DNA of 51,011 bases from a bacterium BMS3Bbin13. Its GTDB lineage: Bacteria > Pseudomonadota > Gammaproteobacteria > 21-64-14. The notes under the pieces were generated by a model. That model saw only the letters and a program-made list of their open reading frames with translations, was not told the origin of the DNA and did no database searches. Position 1 is the first letter of the stretch, and each line of letters opens with the position of its first letter. The DNA lies in the NCBI GenBank assembly GCA_002897735.1, contig BDTW01000013.1, positions 1 through 51,011 of the forward strand. The letters run 5' to 3'. Made by a program: the position numbers and the translations under genes. This document shows, one piece after another, positions 3,663 to 14,089 of the stretch.

Positions 3663-4892
3663 TCAGAAGATCATCTGTACCCCGAGCGTAGCCTGATTAT
3701 AATCTTGCAGCGCGGGCGAGGTGGGGGCTTGGTGCGGATAGGTGACGCGGGCGAACGCCGCCGAGATTTTCAGATTCTGCCCATCGATATAGTAATTTAC
3801 GCCTCCGCTGTTCCAGCGGGCATTATACAGTCCGGAACGCGAACCGGTGAGATGGTAGTTCCATTGCTCGTGACGCACGAAAAACTGCAGCCGCCCGATC
3901 CCGACTTTGGACGGCAACATATAGGCCGCCTTCACGTAGTAGCCGGAAAGCTGTGTATTGACGGGAAGCGACGGATCCGGATGCCGGTTGATCGCGTTAC
4001 CGGTATCGTAATGTATATAGGCCGTGGAAAATGTATAGGTTCCCGTGGAGAACGGGTGCTCGTAGAACAAGTCCGCGGTCCACGCCTTGTAGCTCACGGG
4101 ATCCTTTCGAGCCGGATAATCCGCATAGGCCACATCCTTCTGATAGTCGTAGGCGAGGCCGATGGTCAGCACTTTCTTGGTCCCAAGATAAGTCCCCTCA
4201 TAGCCATAGGCGTATTCCGGCTCCAGGAGACTCACATCGAATCGCGCCGTGATCCGCGGCAAGTGCTTGGGCATGACGGCCGAGTTGTTGCGGCCGTTTG
4301 CGACCATGATTCGGTATTGAAACATCGCGTTGTGGAGATTCCCCCACAAGGCGATGCCGTCGTCGCGGGACCCGCCGAAGGGGGTGTACGAGATGACCTC
4401 GGAGCGATCCATGGTCAGTGGACCGAAGCAATCCTCGAGGTTTTCCCGCGTAAAGGTCTGTTTGAATTTCCCGCCGATGAGCCGGATCGCGTCGGAGTAA
4501 TCGAACGTCAGATAGGCATCTCGATAGAAAACGCCCTTGTTCGCCACACCGAACTTACCATCGTTCGGTGCATCGATCTGTGTATAGAAGCCGAGGTAGT
4601 TGTTGAACTGCCCCGAAATATTGAACCGGTTCCGGCGCAGGAAGAACTGGGTCGTACCGCTGTCGTTGGGGACGGAACTGGTCGGCGTCGGGCCGCTATA
4701 GCTGCGGTATTGCGTCCACATCTGAGTCAGGTAGCTCAACGTAACCGACCCCTCTTTCCCGAACGTCAGGGTGGGTCCCGCTACCGCAGTCCCCGCCGAA
4801 CACCCGATGAGCAACGCCGGAACGATGGCTCGCGCGAGGAAACGGCGCCCCCCCGGCACGGAGCCGAGTGCAAATTTGCTGGATTTTTGCAT
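3663..4892 (-). CDS. Outer-membrane porin, OprP/OprO-like (Porin_O_P family)
   Basis: The 409-residue product has a long signal peptide (basic N-region, hydrophobic core, Ala-Val-Ala-Gly cleavage region) and a body of alternating aromatic and polar residues ending in Phe, as outer-membrane barrels do. FLRRNRFNISGQFNNYLGFY near residue 85 and GGKFKQTFTRENLED are typical of phosphate-selective porins O and P, which form anion-selective trimers. Start: ATG at 4892 with AAGGA about 9 bases upstream, inside the end of the triheme cytochrome gene, so the two are co-translated. Placed between a periplasm-facing cytochrome and a two-component system next to sulfur-transfer genes, it may admit an anionic sulfur compound such as thiosulfate or tetrathionate. 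The substrate is inference; the barrel family is fairly clear. Confidence 0.85.
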   Translation of the reverse strand: MQKSSKFALGSVPGGRRFLARAIVPALLIGCSAGTAVAGPTLTFGKEGSVTLSYLTQMWTQYRSYSGPTPTSSVPNDSGTTQFFLRRNRFNISGQFNNYLGFYTQIDAPNDGKFGVANKGVFYRDAYLTFDYSDAIRLIGGKFKQTFTRENLEDCFGPLTMDRSEVISYTPFGGSRDDGIALWGNLHNAMFQYRIMVANGRNNSAVMPKHLPRITARFDVSLLEPEYAYGYEGTYLGTKKVLTIGLAYDYQKDVAYADYPARKDPVSYKAWTADLFYEHPFSTGTYTFSTAYIHYDTGNAINRHPDPSLPVNTQLSGYYVKAAYMLPSKVGIGRLQFFVRHEQWNYHLTGSRSGLYNARWNSGGVNYYIDGQNLKISAAFARVTYPHQAPTSPALQDYNQATLGVQMIF

Positions 4893-4896
4893 GGCA

Positions 4897-5454
4897 CTAG
4901 TCCTTCTTTTCCGCGATCTGCTTATAGCTCGCCAAGTACTTCCCGAGCTTCGCCGGATCGGTGTGGCAGGTTGCACAGGCCTTTGCGGGGTTCGTCAGCG
5001 GATCCGACAGAAGGCCCGAGTGGGCGATGACCTTGTTCATGAGGCGCGGGTTCCCTTGATGACAACCGTTGCAGGAATAGTTGACGGGGATATGCTGAAC
5101 ATGCCAGGGCTTGTTGTCCGGCGCCGCGGCCTGGGTGCCGTTGTGGCACTTGTAACAGGAGGTCGCGCCCAGCCCGCACGCATTCGCGGGGCGGATTCCC
5201 GCCCCGGAAAGCAGGTCCGCGTGGAGAAGAGCGATCGCCTTGCTTCCCCACCCGTGATCGGTGGCGGTCGCGGTCAATTGGGCCGGGGGGCCGGAATGGG
5301 AGATGGCTTGCGCCGCGGGAGCCTCGCCGCCGAGGCGGCCCGCGATCATCAGTCCGATAATCACGGCGACCAGGGAGGTCGCGGTAACGACGACGCTCGC
5401 TACGATCCCCCGCCGTAGGTGGCGAGCCAGGCGTTTCAATGGTTGGATACTCAT
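4897..5454 (-). CDS. Membrane-anchored triheme cytochrome c
   Basis: The 185-residue protein has a basic N-terminus, one transmembrane helix (about residues 17-38) and a periplasmic domain with three CXXCH haem sites: CYKCH (100), CNGCH (128) and CATCH (160). Several extra His residues (67, 78, 118, 121, 145) could be distal ligands. It should carry electrons in the periplasm or along the inner membrane. The ATG at 5454 overlaps the stop of an upstream 109-codon frame as ATGA. GGAGG lies 11 bases ahead, a loose spacing, so an upstream in-frame start at 5538 remains possible. The next gene, a porin, starts only 4 bases after this stop. It belongs to no cytochrome family I can name with confidence. 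Confidence 0.88.
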   Translation of the reverse strand: MSIQPLKRLARHLRRGIVASVVVTATSLVAVIIGLMIAGRLGGEAPAAQAISHSGPPAQLTATATDHGWGSKAIALLHADLLSGAGIRPANACGLGATSCYKCHNGTQAAAPDNKPWHVQHIPVNYSCNGCHQGNPRLMNKVIAHSGLLSDPLTNPAKACATCHTDPAKLGKYLASYKQIAEKKD

Positions 5455-5920: not shown

Positions 5921-7231
5921 TCAATTTGCAACCCGCGCAGCGGGTACGCCGAGAGGGGGTAGGGAGACGGTCGCCATATTGACTACGAAGCGCTCCGCGT
6001 GCCCCTGCGCCACGGCTTGACGAAGCAGCGGCAGTGCGGCCGGTGGCAGACGCCCGCTCTCGGCGAGATAGTGTTCATACATGTGCACGTACCACTCCTC
6101 GGGGGCGACGGCGAGCCGCAGGCGCACGCGCCAGCCGGGACCCCGCGGGGCCGGGAGATCGGCACCGAAGGTCAGTCGGCCTCCCGGCGGGATACGGGTA
6201 TCGGAGAACTGGCGGGTCAGTTCGAGGTTCACCCGACGGCCGATGGTTCGACTCGCCAGTTGGCGGACGACCTTGCCGGCGGGCGTAACAAGATCGAGGC
6301 GGGCCGTAACACGGGGCACCAGATAGGTGGGGAAGTCGTGTCCGGCCCCGGAATTCACGATCTCGGCCTCGACGTGCACCAACCGCGACCCGCGCCGGCT
6401 GACGTGCAAGGAAACAGTAATGGCCTTGCGCACCATCGCGGGATCATGGATACCACGCCACAAGTGACGGCCCGCCGGCATATGGCAGTCCTGGCAGGAG
6501 ATCCCTTCGCGCGCAAAGCGGCTTCGGCGCCACTCCTGATACGTATTTTCAAACGGAACGCCGTCCAGCGCGGGTCCGTCGGCGGGGAACTGGTGGCAAC
6601 TCGCACAAAAACGGCTGTCCCGAAACGCCGCACTGACAGTAAATCCGCCGTGCGGCAGACCCGGCGTATCGCCCGCCGGCTGGCCGGGCGACGGGGGCGG
6701 CCCATAGCGGCGCTGGGCGCGGACGTGACAGACCGCACAAACCAGCCCCTGATGGGCCAGATCGGGGGGTATATAAGAGGGGGGAGCGCCGGCGGGGACA
6801 TTCGGCCAGTGGAACTCCCGGGCGATCAGCGCCTTCTGCTCCGCGAGGGGGGCATGGCAGCGCATGCAGGAGTTCGCGCCACGCTGACCGTACAGGTAAA
6901 ACTGCCACAGCATGCCGGGTCCCATGGCCGTGTGGTGCAGACTCGAGCGCCACTCCCGATACTGCCGGGTATGGCAGCGACCGCAGGCCGACGGCGCCAA
7001 TGACGCAGTGAGCGACGAATAGTCGGCCGGGGGTTTCCCCTCCGGTTGCAGTGGATACACCCAGTAATGCGCAAGGAACGCAGCAACCGGATCGCTCGAG
7101 GCAACGCGCCGAGACTTGGCGCCGGGCGCGTCGTGCAGCGCCACTGTTAGAATCACCGCCCCCAAAATCAGCGACGGAACCCCGGCCCACAGGAGGAATC
7201 GGAGTCGGCGTCGATGTCGTGGTCTGCCCAT
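5921..7231 (-). CDS. Membrane-anchored pentaheme cytochrome c
   Basis: The 436-residue protein has an N-terminal transmembrane helix after an Arg-rich start (about residues 13-35) and five CXXCH haem sites: CGRCH (83), CMRCH (122), CAVCH (165), CASCH (209) and CQDCH (246). Many additional His residues lie between them, for example SLHHTA near 97. The spacing and ordering recall cytochrome c554-like multihaem proteins. The last 160 residues hold no haem site and look like a beta-sandwich domain (VEAEIVNSGAGHDFPT). It presumably works in the periplasm as an electron carrier or a small-molecule reductase or oxidase. The ATG at 7231 gives a normal anchor; no clear ribosome site is visible. It lies upstream of the sigma-54 promoter and so is transcribed separately from the triheme operon. 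Confidence 0.88.
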   Translation of the reverse strand: MGRPRHRRRLRFLLWAGVPSLILGAVILTVALHDAPGAKSRRVASSDPVAAFLAHYWVYPLQPEGKPPADYSSLTASLAPSACGRCHTRQYREWRSSLHHTAMGPGMLWQFYLYGQRGANSCMRCHAPLAEQKALIAREFHWPNVPAGAPPSYIPPDLAHQGLVCAVCHVRAQRRYGPPPSPGQPAGDTPGLPHGGFTVSAAFRDSRFCASCHQFPADGPALDGVPFENTYQEWRRSRFAREGISCQDCHMPAGRHLWRGIHDPAMVRKAITVSLHVSRRGSRLVHVEAEIVNSGAGHDFPTYLVPRVTARLDLVTPAGKVVRQLASRTIGRRVNLELTRQFSDTRIPPGGRLTFGADLPAPRGPGWRVRLRLAVAPEEWYVHMYEHYLAESGRLPPAALPLLRQAVAQGHAERFVVNMATVSLPPLGVPAARVAN

Positions 7232-7256
7232 AAGCGGATGCTCGCACAAACGGCGG

Positions 7257-7534: not shown

Positions 7535-9031
7535 TCAACCCGCGTTCGCGCAAGGGTTTGGAGGAGGAGGCAGGGCGCCGCCGCCGCTACTGCTGCCGCC
7601 GCCGACGCCACGCTTGTATTCCTGGTCCGCGCGGACAATGGCGTCCGCCGAAATCGCATACGGATCAGTGATGACACGCGTCGTGACGGCAGCCGCGCTG
7701 TCGGCGGGACGGAAGTAGGAACGATTGGTCAAATCCGTCCGCCACGGCGAGTCGATGGGAAGAAGCGGCAAACCATTTTTCGCAACGATGTTGGACATTG
7801 TATGCCATTCATACATCGCACCGTCGTAGAAACGCGTCGGCTTGTCGAGGATGACACCGGAGACAATGCCGGTAATCATGGCTCGGAACGTGGTTTCGCA
7901 ATAAGTGTACACCGTGTCGCCGGACTGGTAGGCCCTGCCGGGGCCCACCGGCTGCAGCGTTCCATCCGTGAAACCCTTTCCGTTGGCGTCCACCCGGCCA
8001 TCGAGATAGGCCTGCAGCTCACTTTTGGGCTTATAACTATAGCCGGTGGCCGAATCCAGCATGTTGGTGAAGTTCAAATCCAGCGCCCCATTGGGATGGC
8101 CCTGCTGAGAACCGCCGTTCTGAAACTCGGTCATGTAATTTGCCGGAACGCCGCCGCTCTCATCGATGAGCCCGGCGCTGTACTGGCCTATGTTGCGTGC
8201 GTCCCAGATAAACACCCCGTCGTGGAGGTCGTTCACGTCGGTGGGCCTGACGATGTGCATCATATCCTCGAGCGTCGCTTGCAGAGCGGTATTGTCCTCC
8301 GGCAGGTTGCGCACCGAGAACGTTCCATTGTCGGGAAGGCAACTCGTGCTCACGTTCTCATCGCAGCTCGCCGTGCCTCCCATGTAGGAGGGCATGCCGT
8401 AGAAAGCGCCGCCGTCGAGCAGGGCGAGGTGCGTCTTGGGCACGCCCCAGTAGCGCATCATGTACCAGCCCCGCCCCATCCACATATTCGGGAGATAGCC
8501 GCCGGTACCCATGACCCACACCAGCATGTCCTTGGTGGGATCGATGCCATAGTCGTGGAAGAACCGATCCATCGTCGGGCCATCCGGCACCATGGCCTTG
8601 ATCTGAGCCACACCGTCGGAACGGGTCTCGATCAGACGGCTTGTATCCACAACGCTGTAGGTCACCACACCGGTCGCGGGATGGGGCGTTATGTATTCCT
8701 GCCCGGTGGGACCGTTATTGATTTGCAGGATGACCAGGCGACCGGTGATGCCCGCCGGACGATTGGCCGGCCAGTCGTCGATCCAGGACTTCAGGGTCTT
8801 CGCGGTGATCAGGCCGTTGACGTTGTTGTTGTAATCGGCGGCGGACTCCTGGGCGATCGCCGCCGGACTGTCGACCGTGATGACCGTTGCCGCCGTGCCC
8901 GCGGCATTGAGCACCAGATCGTGCGCAGCATTGTCTCGGCACGCGCCGACCAGCATCGTCGACGCGGCGAGCATGCCGATGATCAGCCCACGCATCCACT
9001 GGGTGTCGGACCAGATTCTAGTCGGTTTCAT
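7535..9031 (-). CDS. Extracytoplasmic tandem rhodanese lipoprotein
   Basis: The 498-residue protein begins with a lipoprotein signal (lipobox MLVGAC, Cys 31), so it should be anchored in a membrane facing the periplasm or cell surface. The body is a two-domain rhodanese fold. The first domain (about 80-240) has no Cys in its active loop; the second (about 265-440) has TYCETTFRA with Cys 378 where thiosulfate sulfurtransferases carry the persulfide Cys. The loop departs from the usual CxxGxR. The C-terminus is a Gly/Ser/Pro tail. Start: ATG at 9031 with AGGAG 8 bases upstream. A strong terminator follows, so it is monocistronic. Secreted rhodaneses of this kind are common in acidophilic sulfur oxidisers. 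The likely role is moving sulfane sulfur outside the cytoplasm; the substrate is unproven. Confidence 0.85.
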   Translation of the reverse strand: MKPTRIWSDTQWMRGLIIGMLAASTMLVGACRDNAAHDLVLNAAGTAATVITVDSPAAIAQESAADYNNNVNGLITAKTLKSWIDDWPANRPAGITGRLVILQINNGPTGQEYITPHPATGVVTYSVVDTSRLIETRSDGVAQIKAMVPDGPTMDRFFHDYGIDPTKDMLVWVMGTGGYLPNMWMGRGWYMMRYWGVPKTHLALLDGGAFYGMPSYMGGTASCDENVSTSCLPDNGTFSVRNLPEDNTALQATLEDMMHIVRPTDVNDLHDGVFIWDARNIGQYSAGLIDESGGVPANYMTEFQNGGSQQGHPNGALDLNFTNMLDSATGYSYKPKSELQAYLDGRVDANGKGFTDGTLQPVGPGRAYQSGDTVYTYCETTFRAMITGIVSGVILDKPTRFYDGAMYEWHTMSNIVAKNGLPLLPIDSPWRTDLTNRSYFRPADSAAAVTTRVITDPYAISADAIVRADQEYKRGVGGGSSSGGGALPPPPNPCANAG

Positions 9032-9627: not shown

Positions 9628-9813
9628 CTACCAGCAGATCACGCGATCCGATGCGATCAAGGCCGCGAGCAGCCGTGCGTCAAAGCCCTCATCCCGATCG
9701 CGCTCGGCGAGGCAGACCACCTCCTGTACGTGGCCCTCGTCGATCAGATCGATAAACCGTTGTACGGTCCCGGTCAGGTCTTCCGCCTCTTGTACGACAT
9801 GCAGAATCTTCAT
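9628..9813 (-). CDS. DsrH/TusB-like sulfur relay protein (short)
   Basis: The 61-residue protein starts MKILHVVQEAED and ends DRVICW. The terminal Trp and the HVV-start strand are typical of DsrH/TusB subunits, which form part of the DsrEFH (TusBCD) sulfur-carrier hexamer. It is about a third shorter than classic DsrH (about 95-100 residues). Two Cys are present (about 46 and 60); the one next to the last residue could carry sulfur. I chose the ATG at 9813. A GTG at 9849 overlapping the previous stop would add 12 residues. It is the last gene of the operon. Family assignment rests on motif and context and is moderate. Confidence 0.65.
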   Translation of the reverse strand: MKILHVVQEAEDLTGTVQRFIDLIDEGHVQEVVCLAERDRDEGFDARLLAALIASDRVICW

Positions 9814-9845
9814 CGGATTCGCTCTATCTCCGCGCCGTTCCGCGG

Positions 9846-10148
9846 TCACAGACTGATCACGGCATCGTATGCCACGATACGCTGCGAAAACGCCGGCAGG
9901 TCTATGACCGAATCTTCATTCACCGGCGGACTTTCTCCCTCTGCGAGTACTGAAATCGGAGAAATGTCCGCGAGATCCAGCGTCTCCAACTGCTCCTGCA
10001 CCTGCGGATCTTCCAGGCGCAGGCGTTGCAGCAAATAGACGTCCACGCCGTTCCCGGCCAAAGTCAGACCGGCCGCGACCCGCAACGCCTCCGCCTGCTG
10101 CCTGCGCACGAGCACGGCGATCTGCTTGGGGCGGGGTTGACTGCTCAT
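9846..10148 (-). CDS. DsrE/DsrF-like sulfur relay protein lacking Cys
   Basis: The 100-residue protein has the alternating strand/helix pattern of the DsrE/F superfamily (IAVLVRRQQAEALRVAAGL, then VDVYLLQRL). It contains no Cys at all, so like many DsrF/TusC subunits it is more likely structural than sulfur-carrying. Start: ATG at 10148 with GGAG 8 bases ahead, 19 bases after the previous stop. Its place between a Cys-bearing DsrE-like and a DsrH-like protein suggests that the three make a DsrEFH-type complex accepting sulfur from TusA. The fold assignment is by pattern only. Confidence 0.6.
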   Translation of the reverse strand: MSSQPRPKQIAVLVRRQQAEALRVAAGLTLAGNGVDVYLLQRLRLEDPQVQEQLETLDLADISPISVLAEGESPPVNEDSVIDLPAFSQRIVAYDAVISL

Positions 10149-10167: not shown

Positions 10168-10494
10168 TCAAAGCACCAGGACCTTGTCGGCCCACAGCAC
10201 GAATTCGGAGTTCTGATACTGGCTTGCGTAGTTCACACCCTCGATGAGGGCACCCATATGCTCGCGCCCCCAACTCAGTTCGCACACCCCGAAGCGCATG
10301 GACGACGAACGCGCTTCCCGCAGGACCTCCGCATCCGACAGGACCCTGACCCCCTCCCCCGTCAGGAAGCACGCCAGCTCGATTCCTTTGACTCTTGCCT
10401 GGGCGACCAAGCCCTTCAACACCTCGACATACCGGCTGGAGGTCACGATCAGCGCCAAGCGCAGGCATCCCGACGATCCCGAATCCGTGCTCAT
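10168..10494 (-). CDS. DsrE-family sulfur carrier protein
   Basis: The 108-residue soluble protein has the DsrE-like Rossmann pattern: first strand LRLALIVTS, then IELACFLTGEGVRVL, then the Cys in FGVCELSWG (about residue 71), which sits where DsrE proteins hold the sulfur-binding Cys. A further Cys is at about 42. DsrE proteins take persulfide sulfur from TusA in the rhd-TusA-DsrE relay. The ATG overlaps the stop of the upstream rhodanese as ATGA, so the two are translationally coupled. DsrE/F-like and DsrH-like genes follow. The partner is inferred to be the TusA encoded in the same operon. Confidence 0.8.
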   Translation of the reverse strand: MSTDSGSSGCLRLALIVTSSRYVEVLKGLVAQARVKGIELACFLTGEGVRVLSDAEVLREARSSSMRFGVCELSWGREHMGALIEGVNYASQYQNSEFVLWADKVLVL

Positions 10495-11624
10495 TGCTTG
10501 GTACGCCGCAGGACACCCGCCGCCGCGAACAACAGCGCCAGGCCGGCAAGGATATACGCGCCGTACACGAGGCCGGGACTGACGCCGGATGCGGCGGACT
10601 CGGCGTTCTTCTGGACCATTTGGCCGACCAGCGACTCCAGCGCGTCCAACCTGCCCGCCGTCGCCGCCACGGCCCCCGTAATCCGCGGGATATCCAAGTA
10701 CGTCGTGTCGGCCGTGGGCAGAGCGAGGTCGCTGCCCCAAACCTGCCAGGACTGGGGATACATGGCGACACGAGGGAATCCCATCAGCCGCAGCGTGAAA
10801 TACATCATGCTGGCCCGCACGCCGGTCTGACAATAGGTTGCGTAACGAGCGCCCGGATCCAGCCCTTTAAACAGTTTTTCCAGCTTGGCGGCGCTCTTCA
10901 GTCGTCCGGTTTGCGGATTGTTGTGTTGGTACACCCGCGTATAGTCGATGTTGACCGCCCCTGGGATGTGCCCCCCCCGCAGGGCCCTTACGTCGATGCC
11001 GTCGAATTCCGCGATCGTGCGCGCATCGAGCGGTATGACGGTCTTTTGGGACAGCGCCTGCTCCAGTTCGACGGCCGATTCGCGCACCTGCGGAACCACC
11101 CGATACGGGAGCGTGACGGGAATCGGCTCGCTCAAGCCTCGCGCGATCGCGCCGCCGTGACCGATCCAGTCCTGGATCCCGCCGAAATATACCCGCGCGT
11201 GGTCGAGACCTATGTAGTTCAGGGCCCACAACGTATACGTGACGTCGAACGATCCGGGATCACCGGATACGACAATCGGCTTCCCGGGCTGGATTCCATG
11301 CGCACCGAAGATGCGCGCATAGGCCGCCGCGCTCAACGGGCCGTTAGACGGAGTGCGCAGCTTCGAGAAGGGGATGTCGACGGCCGTTGGGATGTGGAGC
11401 AAGGCGAACTGGCCGGGCTCCCGCACGTCGACGATCTGCACGTTCCCGCTCTGCTGATGCGCCCGCAACCATGCGAAGTTCGCCAGCAGCGAGCCGTCCG
11501 GGTAGCCGGCGGCGGCCACCGCCGCCGATACGGGCAATACCATCAACGCGAAAGCAAGAACCACGCCAAGTGCACGCGCCATCCTGCCGTTGTAATCCAC
11601 GAGCCCAGCCGGCCTTTGTCTCAT
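10491..11624 (-). CDS. Secreted tandem rhodanese with C-terminal membrane anchor
   Basis: The 377-residue protein has a signal peptide (hydrophobic core about 16-38, Ala-rich cleavage region), a first rhodanese domain (about 45-165) whose active loop is SGDPGSFD and lacks Cys, a second rhodanese domain (about 185-300) with the canonical loop CQTGVRA (Cys 265), and a C-terminal transmembrane helix (about 350-370) followed by a short basic tail. That topology places both domains in the periplasm, fixed to the inner membrane. It would take sulfane sulfur from thiosulfate or a related donor. Start: ATG at 11624, AGGAG 7 bases upstream. The stop overlaps the DsrE start. The catalytic site is outside while TusA and DsrE are inside, so a transmembrane step is needed; YeeE-type permeases in the same operon could supply it. 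Confidence 0.88.
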   Translation of the reverse strand: MRQRPAGLVDYNGRMARALGVVLAFALMVLPVSAAVAAAGYPDGSLLANFAWLRAHQQSGNVQIVDVREPGQFALLHIPTAVDIPFSKLRTPSNGPLSAAAYARIFGAHGIQPGKPIVVSGDPGSFDVTYTLWALNYIGLDHARVYFGGIQDWIGHGGAIARGLSEPIPVTLPYRVVPQVRESAVELEQALSQKTVIPLDARTIAEFDGIDVRALRGGHIPGAVNIDYTRVYQHNNPQTGRLKSAAKLEKLFKGLDPGARYATYCQTGVRASMMYFTLRLMGFPRVAMYPQSWQVWGSDLALPTADTTYLDIPRITGAVAATAGRLDALESLVGQMVQKNAESAASGVSPGLVYGAYILAGLALLFAAAGVLRRTKQ

Positions 11625-11680: not shown

Positions 11681-11722
11681 GCTCAACATCCGGTCGGGGC
11701 GCTGATTGCCTTCGCCGATGCC
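11681..11722 (-). repeat. Copy A of a 42-base direct repeat encoding a shared C-terminal tail
   Basis: These bases encode the last 12 residues and stop of the 97-residue membrane protein, ending in SAKAISAPTGC. They match 12100-12141 at 41 of 42 positions. The only difference is a synonymous GGA/GGG Gly codon. Confidence 0.95.
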
Positions 11723-11976
11723 CCGGACTGCGGGGCGCCCTGACTTTTCAGATAGTGAAACAACAATTGCTCAACCGTCATTTCCCGTGATTTTCCCCCT
11801 ACGCGCACTCGAACCTTCGGAAAATCGACGGCCGCCCTCGGAATATCCGCTTCGGCGATCTGTCTGGGATCTTGGGCCCAATAGTGAAACGGTATTGCCA
11901 GGACGCCGACCACCGCGGCCATGGTCAACAGCATGTAAAGGACTGCGATGCGAATTTCCCGGAACGAGAACATCAT
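11683..11976 (-). CDS. Small membrane protein with Cys-ending tail, copy A
   Basis: The 97-residue protein has a basic N-terminus (FREIR) followed by one transmembrane helix (about 10-30), so the C-terminal 65 residues should face the periplasm. The tail contains MTVEQLLFHYLKSQG and ends with SAKAISAPTGC, where Cys is the last residue and the only one in the protein. I do not recognise a family. A protein two genes upstream has the same tail on a different body. A C-terminal Cys on a flexible arm is how DsrC-type carriers hold sulfur, so a role in passing sulfur between periplasmic rhodanese and permease is a reasonable guess. The two adjacent ATGs at 11976 and 11973 share the ribosome site GGAGAG; the second has better spacing. 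Confidence 0.7.
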   Translation of the reverse strand: MMFSFREIRIAVLYMLLTMAAVVGVLAIPFHYWAQDPRQIAEADIPRAAVDFPKVRVRVGGKSREMTVEQLLFHYLKSQGAPQSGASAKAISAPTGC

Positions 11977-11986
11977 TCACTCTCCG

Positions 11987-12067
11987 CTAGCTCTTGAAGA
12001 GAATGGCGTAGAACAGAAGAAACGTGGTAACGAACAAGACCAGGAGCAAAATGGCCGGGGTCGTCAT
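11987..12067 (-). CDS. 26-residue single-helix membrane miniprotein
   Basis: This frame is too short for routine gene calling. It starts at ATG 12067 with GGAGG about 10 bases ahead and stops at 11989-11987, 11 bases before the next gene. The product is one hydrophobic helix (PAILLLVLFVTTFLLFYAIL) with polar MTT at one end and FKS at the other, the size and form of accessory subunits such as CydX or KdpF. It is tightly packed between the two Cys-tail membrane proteins, leaving no room for anything else. I suggest a subunit that stabilises the permease or the anchored tails. No family is recognised. Confidence 0.65.
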   Translation of the reverse strand: MTTPAILLLVLFVTTFLLFYAILFKS

Positions 12068-12099
12068 TGTCAGTGATCCTCCATTAACAGCCGCGCGAT

Positions 12100-12141
12100 G
12101 CTCAACACCCGGTCGGGGCGCTGATTGCCTTCGCCGATGCC
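12100..12141 (-). repeat. Copy B of the 42-base direct repeat encoding a shared C-terminal tail
   Basis: These bases encode the last residues and stop of the 96-residue membrane protein, again ending SAKAISAPTGC. The direct repeat lies 419 bases from copy A. Recombination between the copies would delete the miniprotein and most of one partner gene. Confidence 0.95.
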
Positions 12142-12392
12142 GGCGTCCCGCTGCCGGCGGCGCTCGCTTGGTAAGAACGAATCAGTTCATCGATCGATAT
12201 GGAGCGGGATGTCGTCGAACCGCCCGAACCGGAGGTTTCCGGGAGGAGGACCGGCGGGGTCGTGAAGCGGTCCAGGCCGTACGAGGTTCGTGCCAGCCGC
12301 GGAGGCGGGTCCACGACCAGGTAGATGAAGCTTCCCACGGTCGCCGTGGCGAGGGCGATGACCATCCCATAGATATAGATCCGCCAGATCAT
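12102..12392 (-). CDS. Small membrane protein with Cys-ending tail, copy B
   Basis: The 96-residue protein starts MIWRIYIYG and has one transmembrane helix (about 4-27), then DPPPR and a Ser/Thr/Gly-rich periplasmic arm with SISIDELIRSYQAS. It ends with SAKAISAPTGC, identical to the end of copy A. The short helix before the tail also matches copy A in pattern (S/T-I/V-D/E-E/Q-L-x-x-x-Y), so the C-terminal modules are related while the rest has diverged. The only Cys is the last residue. The ATG overlaps the tusA stop as ATGA. An extended frame upstream exists but runs through tusA. Function unknown; sulfur handling is inferred from the operon. Confidence 0.72.
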   Translation of the reverse strand: MIWRIYIYGMVIALATATVGSFIYLVVDPPPRLARTSYGLDRFTTPPVLLPETSGSGGSTTSRSISIDELIRSYQASAAGSGTPASAKAISAPTGC

Positions 12393-12712
12393 GCCACCCC
12401 CTTGCGCACGTATACGCGCCACTGCCGGGGGTCCTTGACGGTCGCAACGTGGGTGCAACGCAATTCCGCCATCATCGGAGGAATCGCCTCCACCGAACTC
12501 GGGTTGTCGACCAGGACCTCGACCACATCGCCCTCATTTACTTCACGCAATGCCTTTTTAGCAAGAAGCTGCGGCCGGGGACAACTGTCACCCAGGCAGT
12601 TGACCTGGCGCACGATCGTCAGCAGCCCCACGCCGGGCACATCCACCGTACTCGTCCGGGCGGACGGATCACCGCCCTGCCGCTTCTTTTTCCCGCTTCC
12701 GAACAAACCCAT
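12389..12712 (-). CDS. tusA: TusA-family sulfur carrier protein
   Basis: The 107-residue protein has a basic N-terminal extension (GSGKKKRQGG) of about 25 residues not found in E. coli TusA (81 residues), then the TusA domain with NCLGDSCPRPQLLAKKAL. CPxP carries the reactive Cys (about 44), and a second Cys lies five residues earlier. TusA passes persulfide sulfur from rhodaneses to DsrE-type acceptors. Start: ATG at 12712, GAGGTG about 8 bases ahead; a GTG three codons upstream is less likely. It follows two YeeE/YedE genes by 60 bases and overlaps the next gene by ATGA. YeeE-TusA pairs are widespread and thought to couple sulfur import to a cytoplasmic carrier. Confidence 0.92.
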   Translation of the reverse strand: MGLFGSGKKKRQGGDPSARTSTVDVPGVGLLTIVRQVNCLGDSCPRPQLLAKKALREVNEGDVVEVLVDNPSSVEAIPPMMAELRCTHVATVKDPRQWRVYVRKGVA

Positions 12713-12772
12713 CGTAAACACCTCGCAACGTACGCACCCTTTGGCCGTCGATCCCGCAGGCGGAGCGGGACA

Positions 12773-13405
12773 CTAATGACAACCGCCCTCTTCGCCGACC
12801 GGAGCGGAACCGCCCGTCGCCGCGGCCTTCTGGCGCGCTTCCCGCCTGAGGATTGCGCGGTAGAACAGCGCCAACACGCCGACTTGGATCAAGCCAAACA
12901 CCACTGCGGGGATCCCGGTCTCGTCCTGCAGCGTACGGGCGTTGGCGAACCCGAACTGAAGACTCCGCAGATGCACTTTATGATCCATCAAACCGTAGGC
13001 GGGCGGCCAATGGATGACGCTGTAGAGCATGGAGAAGGCGAACATCCCCACGAAGGTGAAAATCAAGGCCCAGAGCGCACCGATGTTGCCTTCCCCGACC
13101 CGAACCCACGTTCCGACCGTGCATGCGCCCGCCATGACCATCCCGATACCGAACAGGAAGAGACCGATGACCGTGTTGAGGCCGGAGTCGAACTGCACCG
13201 GATGGCCGATTCCAAATGTCTCCCCCAGGGTAAACAGGAAAGTCATGATCATCATGCCGACCAATAGCGCCTTGGTGCTGCGGTAGCTGCGAAAGAGCAT
13301 TGCGTCACGCAACGCGGCGACGTTGCAGAATCGACTCCGCTGGACCAGGATTCCCACCAGGGTCCCGAACATGAACGCTGCGATTACGTCTGCAACCGGA
13401 CTCAT
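12773..13405 (-). CDS. YeeE/YedE-family sulfur permease, half-size subunit
   Basis: This 210-residue protein has about five or six hydrophobic helices and the YeeE/YedE signatures RSRFCN (Cys about 27) and MAGACTVGTWVRVGEGN (Cys about 95). In the thiosulfate importer TsuA, conserved Cys residues along the pore relay the substrate, and these two sit in equivalent motifs. It is about half the size of full YeeE proteins and lies next to a second half-size gene, so the transporter is probably a heterodimer as in PmpA/PmpB-type pairs. Start: ATG at 13405 with a near-perfect AGGAGG. The Cys- and His-containing C-terminus (EEGGCH) is cytoplasmic or periplasmic depending on helix count. Substrate: sulfane sulfur or thiosulfate, inferred. 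Confidence 0.88.
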   Translation of the reverse strand: MSPVADVIAAFMFGTLVGILVQRSRFCNVAALRDAMLFRSYRSTKALLVGMMIMTFLFTLGETFGIGHPVQFDSGLNTVIGLFLFGIGMVMAGACTVGTWVRVGEGNIGALWALIFTFVGMFAFSMLYSVIHWPPAYGLMDHKVHLRSLQFGFANARTLQDETGIPAVVFGLIQVGVLALFYRAILRREARQKAAATGGSAPVGEEGGCH

Positions 13406-13477: not shown

Positions 13478-14089
13478 CTACACGCCGAGCGCCTTCTTGT
13501 ATATTTGGGTGCCGACCCACGCACCCGCGAGGATGCCGCTTACAGCGAGGTAGCCGGCCAGATTCATCTCGGTGGTAACGGCGAAAAACGTGCTTATATT
13601 GCAGATAAACGCCAGCCGTATGCCGATCCCCATCAGCAGTCCGCCGATCGTGATCATCGTCCACTCACCGAGATGCCGTGGCAGGCGCAGATAAAACTCA
13701 CCCGACAGCAGCGCCCCGACGAAGGCGCCGAAGAGCATGCCGAAGCTGATATAGATCTTCCAGTACAGGGGATCCAGGGGAAATACCTTCCCCCAGTATG
13801 GGAACCGATGCAGGATCGCATTCCCGAAAATCGCCTTGCCCAAAAAGCCGGTCATCGCGGTCTCGCCGCCGCCGACCGTCCAGGCCCCCACGATGATGAA
13901 CAGGAACCCGTCGGCAACCGCGATGATCATCAGCGCGATCACCGGATTGAGGGTCTTGCTGAACAACGCCTTGATCGGCCCGATTTGCGGTACGGCGGCC
14001 GACCCGCCCCTCACGCCGGATCCTCCTCCCAGCGCCGCCTCGGAGGCGGCGGCAGAGCGCTTGGGGTATCGTCCGGAGAAACCGAGCAT
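13478..14089 (-). CDS. YeeE/YedE-family sulfur permease, second half-size subunit
   Basis: The 203-residue protein has a polar N-terminus of about 45 residues, then four or five hydrophobic helices. The YeeE signature GIRLAFICNISTFF holds its single conserved Cys (about 164). It is the first gene of the sulfur-relay operon: a sigma-54 promoter lies 65 bases upstream, and ATG 14089 is preceded by GAGGA at 7-8 bases. With the following gene it would form a complete YeeE-like channel with at least three pore Cys residues. The longer loop with YWGKVFPLDPLYWKIY may be periplasmic. Confidence 0.87.
   Translation of the reverse strand: MLGFSGRYPKRSAAASEAALGGGSGVRGGSAAVPQIGPIKALFSKTLNPVIALMIIAVADGFLFIIVGAWTVGGGETAMTGFLGKAIFGNAILHRFPYWGKVFPLDPLYWKIYISFGMLFGAFVGALLSGEFYLRLPRHLGEWTMITIGGLLMGIGIRLAFICNISTFFAVTTEMNLAGYLAVSGILAGAWVGTQIYKKALGV

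Follow-up and report, generated by a model that had tools for sequence, protein, structure and literature searches.

In the 51,011-nucleotide stretch of bacterial DNA analysed here (hereafter, the window), we found a small single-pass membrane protein, P1, that belongs to a family ending in an invariant Gly-Cys and encoded within a sulfur-relay operon, and whose last codons were copied recently into the nearby gene of a second small membrane protein, P2. We regard it as an even proposition that P1 is a membrane-anchored thiol arm which would present sulfane sulfur to a YeeE-type importer within a module of the YeeE-TusA-DsrEFH type.

P1 (11683..11976, reverse strand) is a protein of 97 aa with a small domain and a flexible tail leading to Cys97, as judged from its open reading frame, an alignment of 22 members and an AlphaFold model. 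In this model (mean pLDDT 75), a membrane helix (residues 5-33) is followed by a hairpin and a helix (55-78) which make up the small domain, and then by the last 19 residues (79-97), a disordered stretch that runs to the Cys, whereas the rest of the protein is ordered. The first set of relatives came from loci reached via the neighbouring YeeE gene, with no selection for Cys, and their ORFs were then chosen by ending; every locus reached in this way with sufficient downstream sequence held a P1 ORF ending in GC. Six extra members retrieved by profile searches imposing no Cys also end in GC. In total, 28/28 members, drawn from Gamma-, Beta- and Alphaproteobacteria, carry the terminal Gly-Cys, as do all 26 members that are non-redundant at 90% identity, and because of this constancy the Cys of P1 is very likely functional. 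Y75, G96 and C97 are the only invariant positions of the 22-member alignment, the proteins being 13-36% identical to the window protein elsewhere, and the spacing from the Tyr to the Cys ranges from 20 to 26 across the family (22 in the window). Family endings are mostly FGGC, together with FQGC, FEGC, FAGC, IGGC and NHGC; the ending APTGC, which the initial annotation had recommended as a search term, is private to this genome and would miss the FGGC family. Weak profile matches from elsewhere in the phylum sample (L050-L054) were rejected as unrelated, those inspected being long or of another kind. For P1, Pfam, NCBIfam and PHROG yield nothing convincing, no solved relative is found in the PDB by sequence or in a fold search of solved structures (best E 0.24), and plasmids carry no copy. 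Among open-licence papers we found neither a membrane-anchored terminal-Cys sulfur carrier nor an operon containing P1, and no description of the family turned up in these papers or in the libraries searched.

P1 was found solely in one operon and nowhere else. The order of its genes, read from a congeneric sister species (locus L006 of G001) and from the loci reached via the neighbouring YeeE gene, is conserved as YeeE C-terminal half, YeeE N-terminal half, TusA, P2, a membrane peptide of 26-30 aa, P1, a rhodanese-like protein, and DsrE-, DsrF- and DsrH-like proteins, which agrees with the sulfur setting proposed at the outset. At more distant YeeE loci no such operon was recognised, and P1 is thus no obligatory companion of YeeE in general. 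In the window, where all of these genes lie on the reverse strand, the split YeeE/TsuA transporter consists of a C-terminal half (13478..14089; PF04143 positions 165-310) with Cys163 in ..FICNIS.. and an N-terminal half (12773..13405; PF04143 positions 1-160 and TsuA models) that keeps Cys27 and Cys95, and the transport cysteines are thus retained, as expected from the relation to TsuA and PmpAB given in passages of PMC11582611. The halves measure 203 and 210 aa, and the N-terminal half 199-233 aa in relatives. It ends in the window in ..GEEGGCH, with a near-terminal Cys that is absent in most relatives, a few of which have other late cysteines (L014 ends in MGICH). Next comes the TusA-family sulfurtransferase with its CPRPQ motif (12389..12721; PF01206, E 5.8e-19), followed by P2, the 26-aa membrane peptide MTTPAILLLVLFVTTFLLFYAILFKS (11987..12067), which is the counterpart of the ORF of 26-30 aa lying between P2 and P1 in relatives, P1 itself and the rhodanese (10491..11624). 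The three cytoplasmic proteins are DsrE-like (10168..10497), DsrF-like (9846..10148) and DsrH-like (9628..9849); the first two were assigned by position and by homology to their counterparts in relatives, and the third, which has no direct match, by the same position and size as in relatives.

P2 (12102..12392, reverse strand) is a single-pass membrane protein of 96 aa, recognised by alignment, by its position after TusA in all relatives and by a structure model. As the initial annotation had pointed out, P1 and P2 share a nearly identical end: the 42-nt copies at 11681..11722 in P1 and 12100..12141 in P2, both on the reverse strand, agree at 41/42 bases, the sole mismatch being a synonymous GGA/GGG in a Gly codon, and in each protein the terminal residue (Cys97 and Cys96, respectively) is the only Cys. 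Each copy covers the last 12 codons, the TGA stop and 2 nt past it, and encodes the 12-residue peptide ASAKAISAPTGC-stop. The remainder of the two genes aligns at 58.3% identity versus a shuffled mean of 57.5%, and a profile comparison by hhalign (probability 15%) finds the protein bodies weakly alike at best, so a clear paralogy of P1 and P2 is not borne out. With 12/13 codons identical (P ~2e-4 for at least 12/13 when a shared peptide and local codon usage are assumed), recent copying stands, whereas the ongoing gene conversion that had been invoked to keep the copies the same is not needed, as one recent copy suffices. A search with the 25-base core allowing up to 2 mismatches returned exactly two sites in the whole 2.69-Mb genome, hence no third copy, and none was found in viral contigs, which rules out a mobile or dispersed repeat; derivation of the tail from DsrC is likewise ruled out by differing codons.

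The two genes are not equal owners of this tail. The body of P2 is orthologous to proteins of 62-78 aa ending in ..IRHYKGE, to which the window protein adds a 22-aa extension. Homologues without the terminal Cys, which the initial annotation had named as evidence against its reading, are thus the rule for P2 (terminal Cys in 0/24, of which 20 were aligned and four, L008, L047, L049 and L104, read by eye) and do not occur among the 28 members of the P1 family. All but one of the 24 end at or just past ..IRHYKGE; the remaining one, in the sister species (G001, L006 1321-1704, reverse strand), is fused in frame to the small TM peptide and makes a two-helix hairpin. Because the P1 family ends in Cys and the P2 homologues do not, the tail passed from P1, the donor, to P2, the recipient, through recent local copying of DNA in the window lineage. 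It is thus not ancestral to both, only P1 having its Cys by descent, and the earlier view of P1 and P2 as a matched pair is abandoned.

Whether P2 gained anything from this copy is a separate question. The 42-bp piece provides P2 with an arm of equal length, as the spacing from its conserved Tyr to the Cys is 22 residues, the same as in window P1, and P2 with the copied tail would probably serve the same complex as a further arm. For P2 alone, there is a serious though lesser chance that a local template switch left a neutral tail without function: it is seen in one genome only, and the tract has gathered almost no substitutions, hence is young. That the copy is in frame and ends exactly at the stop, and that it reproduces the spacing of P1, speaks against such an accident.

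For P1, the reading we propose at the even confidence given above is the following. A single helix would anchor the protein in the inner membrane in an N-in/C-out orientation, and the small domain with its flexible arm of ~20 residues would hold the invariant Gly-Cys in the periplasm. There the Cys would bind sulfane sulfur in persulfide form, candidate periplasmic donors being SoxYZ-bound sulfur, polysulfide sulfur or the rhodanese-like protein of the operon, and would offer it where the split YeeE/TsuA transporter opens to the periplasm, after which the imported sulfur would be picked up in the cytoplasm by TusA and the DsrEFH-like proteins.

The rhodanese-like neighbour bears on two other possible roles for the Cys. 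In the window it is an exported protein of two domains with a C-terminal membrane helix (PF00581, E 5.2e-30, and alignment), with an active-site Cys265 (CQTGVR) in domain 2 and without a CX9C pair. Its orthologues are the opposite: all 15 that were aligned (one of them, L049, truncated in domain 2) have no catalytic Cys left in either domain, whereas a CX9C pair in domain 1 is invariant among them, and four more loci (L101-L104) have this type too. Loci with the Cys-less CX9C type include L008-L022, L006 and L101-L104. The genome of the window also encodes such a protein away from the operon (L116/L107; G000 contig C14, 267-1223), on a contig of 3.3 kb where it adjoins a c-type cytochrome-like ORF and a UspA-like ORF. 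Two further rhodaneses were observed in passing. In the window, a lipoprotein-like rhodanese adjoins an MtrC/MtrF-like outer-membrane cytochrome (7535-9031 and 5921-7249, reverse strand), with a porin-like ORF (3663-4976) and a two-component pair nearby, and is related to ExtH of the selenite/tellurite reduction operon (model NF040901), below the model cut-off. On a Spirochaetales contig, a rhodanese lies between YeeE and TusA genes (L030 2519-3635) and is 29% identical to that of the window over 309 aa.

Since CX9C is invariant in 15/15 of the aligned Cys-less orthologues, a periplasmic thiol/disulfide partner exists, and the terminal Cys of P1 could be a redox tether, forming a disulfide with the rhodanese-like CX9C or with a YeeE Cys and so assembling or gating the importer. 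We consider this unlikely, although worth keeping in mind, as the window operon has the catalytic type of rhodanese with its CX9C protein encoded elsewhere in the genome, in one operon (L023) P1 is present although dsrE is not preceded by any rhodanese gene, and a flexible arm of 20 residues exceeds what a tether needs. More doubtful is the idea that the Cys of P1 docks in the Cys-less rhodanese pockets and replaces their missing sulfur-binding Cys in trans; every aligned orthologue is indeed free of Cys at both catalytic positions while standing beside an obligatory flexible terminal Cys, but the window rhodanese owns Cys265, and the L023 operon again has P1 without such a neighbour. Because the type differs in the window and the gene is absent at L023, the Cys of P1 does not depend on the rhodanese neighbour, and in most hosts the two proteins may have a joint role.

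The proposed arm also requires the tail to be on the periplasmic side, as the initial annotation had assumed. The N-terminal side is more positive than the C-terminal side in 13/22 P1 proteins, and the charge rule alone does not settle the topology; P1 is probably N-in/C-out nonetheless because of its short N-termini with basic residues and because of the fusion in the sister species, whose strongly basic N-terminus points to a hairpin that begins and ends on the inner side, which would fit an N-in/C-out P2. A cytoplasmic tail giving sulfur directly to TusA or DsrEFH would suit the cytoplasmic partners encoded in the same operon and the weak charge bias, but the short, often basic stretches before the helix and the P2-TM peptide fusion both fit N-in/C-out, leaving this option improbable. 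That the tail match is an artefact of assembly or of chance is scarcely credible even with a single assembly of 62 contigs, since the copies differ at one base, both ORFs are intact in their expected operon slots, the P1 orthologues carry Cys at the matching position, and none of 100 shuffles of the sequence yielded a match.

The hosts look like sulfur oxidisers because SoxY is encoded in 16/18 of their genomes and a DsrC-family protein in 17/18. SoxY is therefore absent in two hosts and DsrC in one, and neither can be an obligatory partner of P1; the genome without DsrC (G263, with loci L045 and L092) has the full operon with a P1 ending in FGGC. According to passages of PMC11582611, a YeeE-family protein, SoxT, imports sulfur for oxidation, and the handover of sulfane sulfur from periplasmic carriers to YeeE-type importers is poorly understood. 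P1, a conserved, unnamed membrane protein with an invariant terminal Cys, is a concrete candidate for this step; its gene stands amid those for the transporter, TusA and DsrEFH, also in cultured species including Sedimenticola selenatireducens and Sulfuriferula multivorans. Only tentatively would we go further and suggest a new class of membrane-anchored periplasmic carrier, a single-pass protein that loads a YeeE-type importer through its terminal Gly-Cys arm and works together with a Cys-less rhodanese-like partner, the donor Cys and the binding pocket being on separate proteins. The pairing of P1 with the Cys-less rhodanese is a second unexplained feature, and the tail copy illustrates clearly, if on a small scale, how a functional peptide can pass from one gene to a neighbouring one.

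Among known systems, the operon is closest to the yeeE-tusA-dsrEFH clusters known as the YTD cluster, for a related example of which transfer from TusA to type II DsrEFH and on to DsrC was demonstrated in vitro (passages of PMC13293266). As in the YTD cluster, a YeeE-family sulfur transporter gene stands beside tusA (PF04143 over two genes, PF01206), together with three small genes for DsrE/F/H-like cytoplasmic proteins after tusA, in the same order as in relatives and with the first two homologous. The published cluster, as presented in those passages, has five genes without the split YeeE, P2, TM peptide, P1 and exported rhodanese-like protein, and the passages of the YTD and YeeE papers (PMC13293266, PMC11582611) make no mention of P1 or P2. 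Transporter halves in separate genes are shared with PmpA/PmpB, which in the passages of PMC11582611 have ~130 aa and four helices each; the halves in the window are larger and, unlike these, are accompanied by three single-pass proteins.

P1 has the hallmarks of a flexible terminal-Cys arm, namely the disordered tail 79-97 and the invariant GC, and would work much like known carriers of this kind while belonging to neither the DsrC nor the SoxY family. The initial annotation had drawn an analogy with DsrC, which likewise carries a Cys at or near the tip of a flexible C-terminal arm and in this genome ends in PKPTGCV against SAPTGC in P1. This likeness in PTGC is confined to this genome, as relatives of P1 end in FGGC, and the tail DNA differs. 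DsrC is moreover cytoplasmic and soluble with two arm cysteines, whereas P1 has one, no second arm Cys being found in the family and no PF04358 (DsrC) match in its 22 members. In SoxYZ, the GGC arm of SoxY is a periplasmic sulfur carrier, and SoxY tails read KVTIGGCGG in other hosts and KITIGGCGG in the genome of the window. Unlike P1, SoxY is soluble, paired with SoxZ, has its own folded domain (PF13501, with no match in P1) and carries two residues after the Cys, where P1 ends in GGC or PTGC without the following GG. SoxY, whose Cys sits on a flexible GGC(GG) arm at the C-terminus in the periplasm, is nevertheless closer than DsrC to P1 in motif and probable compartment, and the better analogy.
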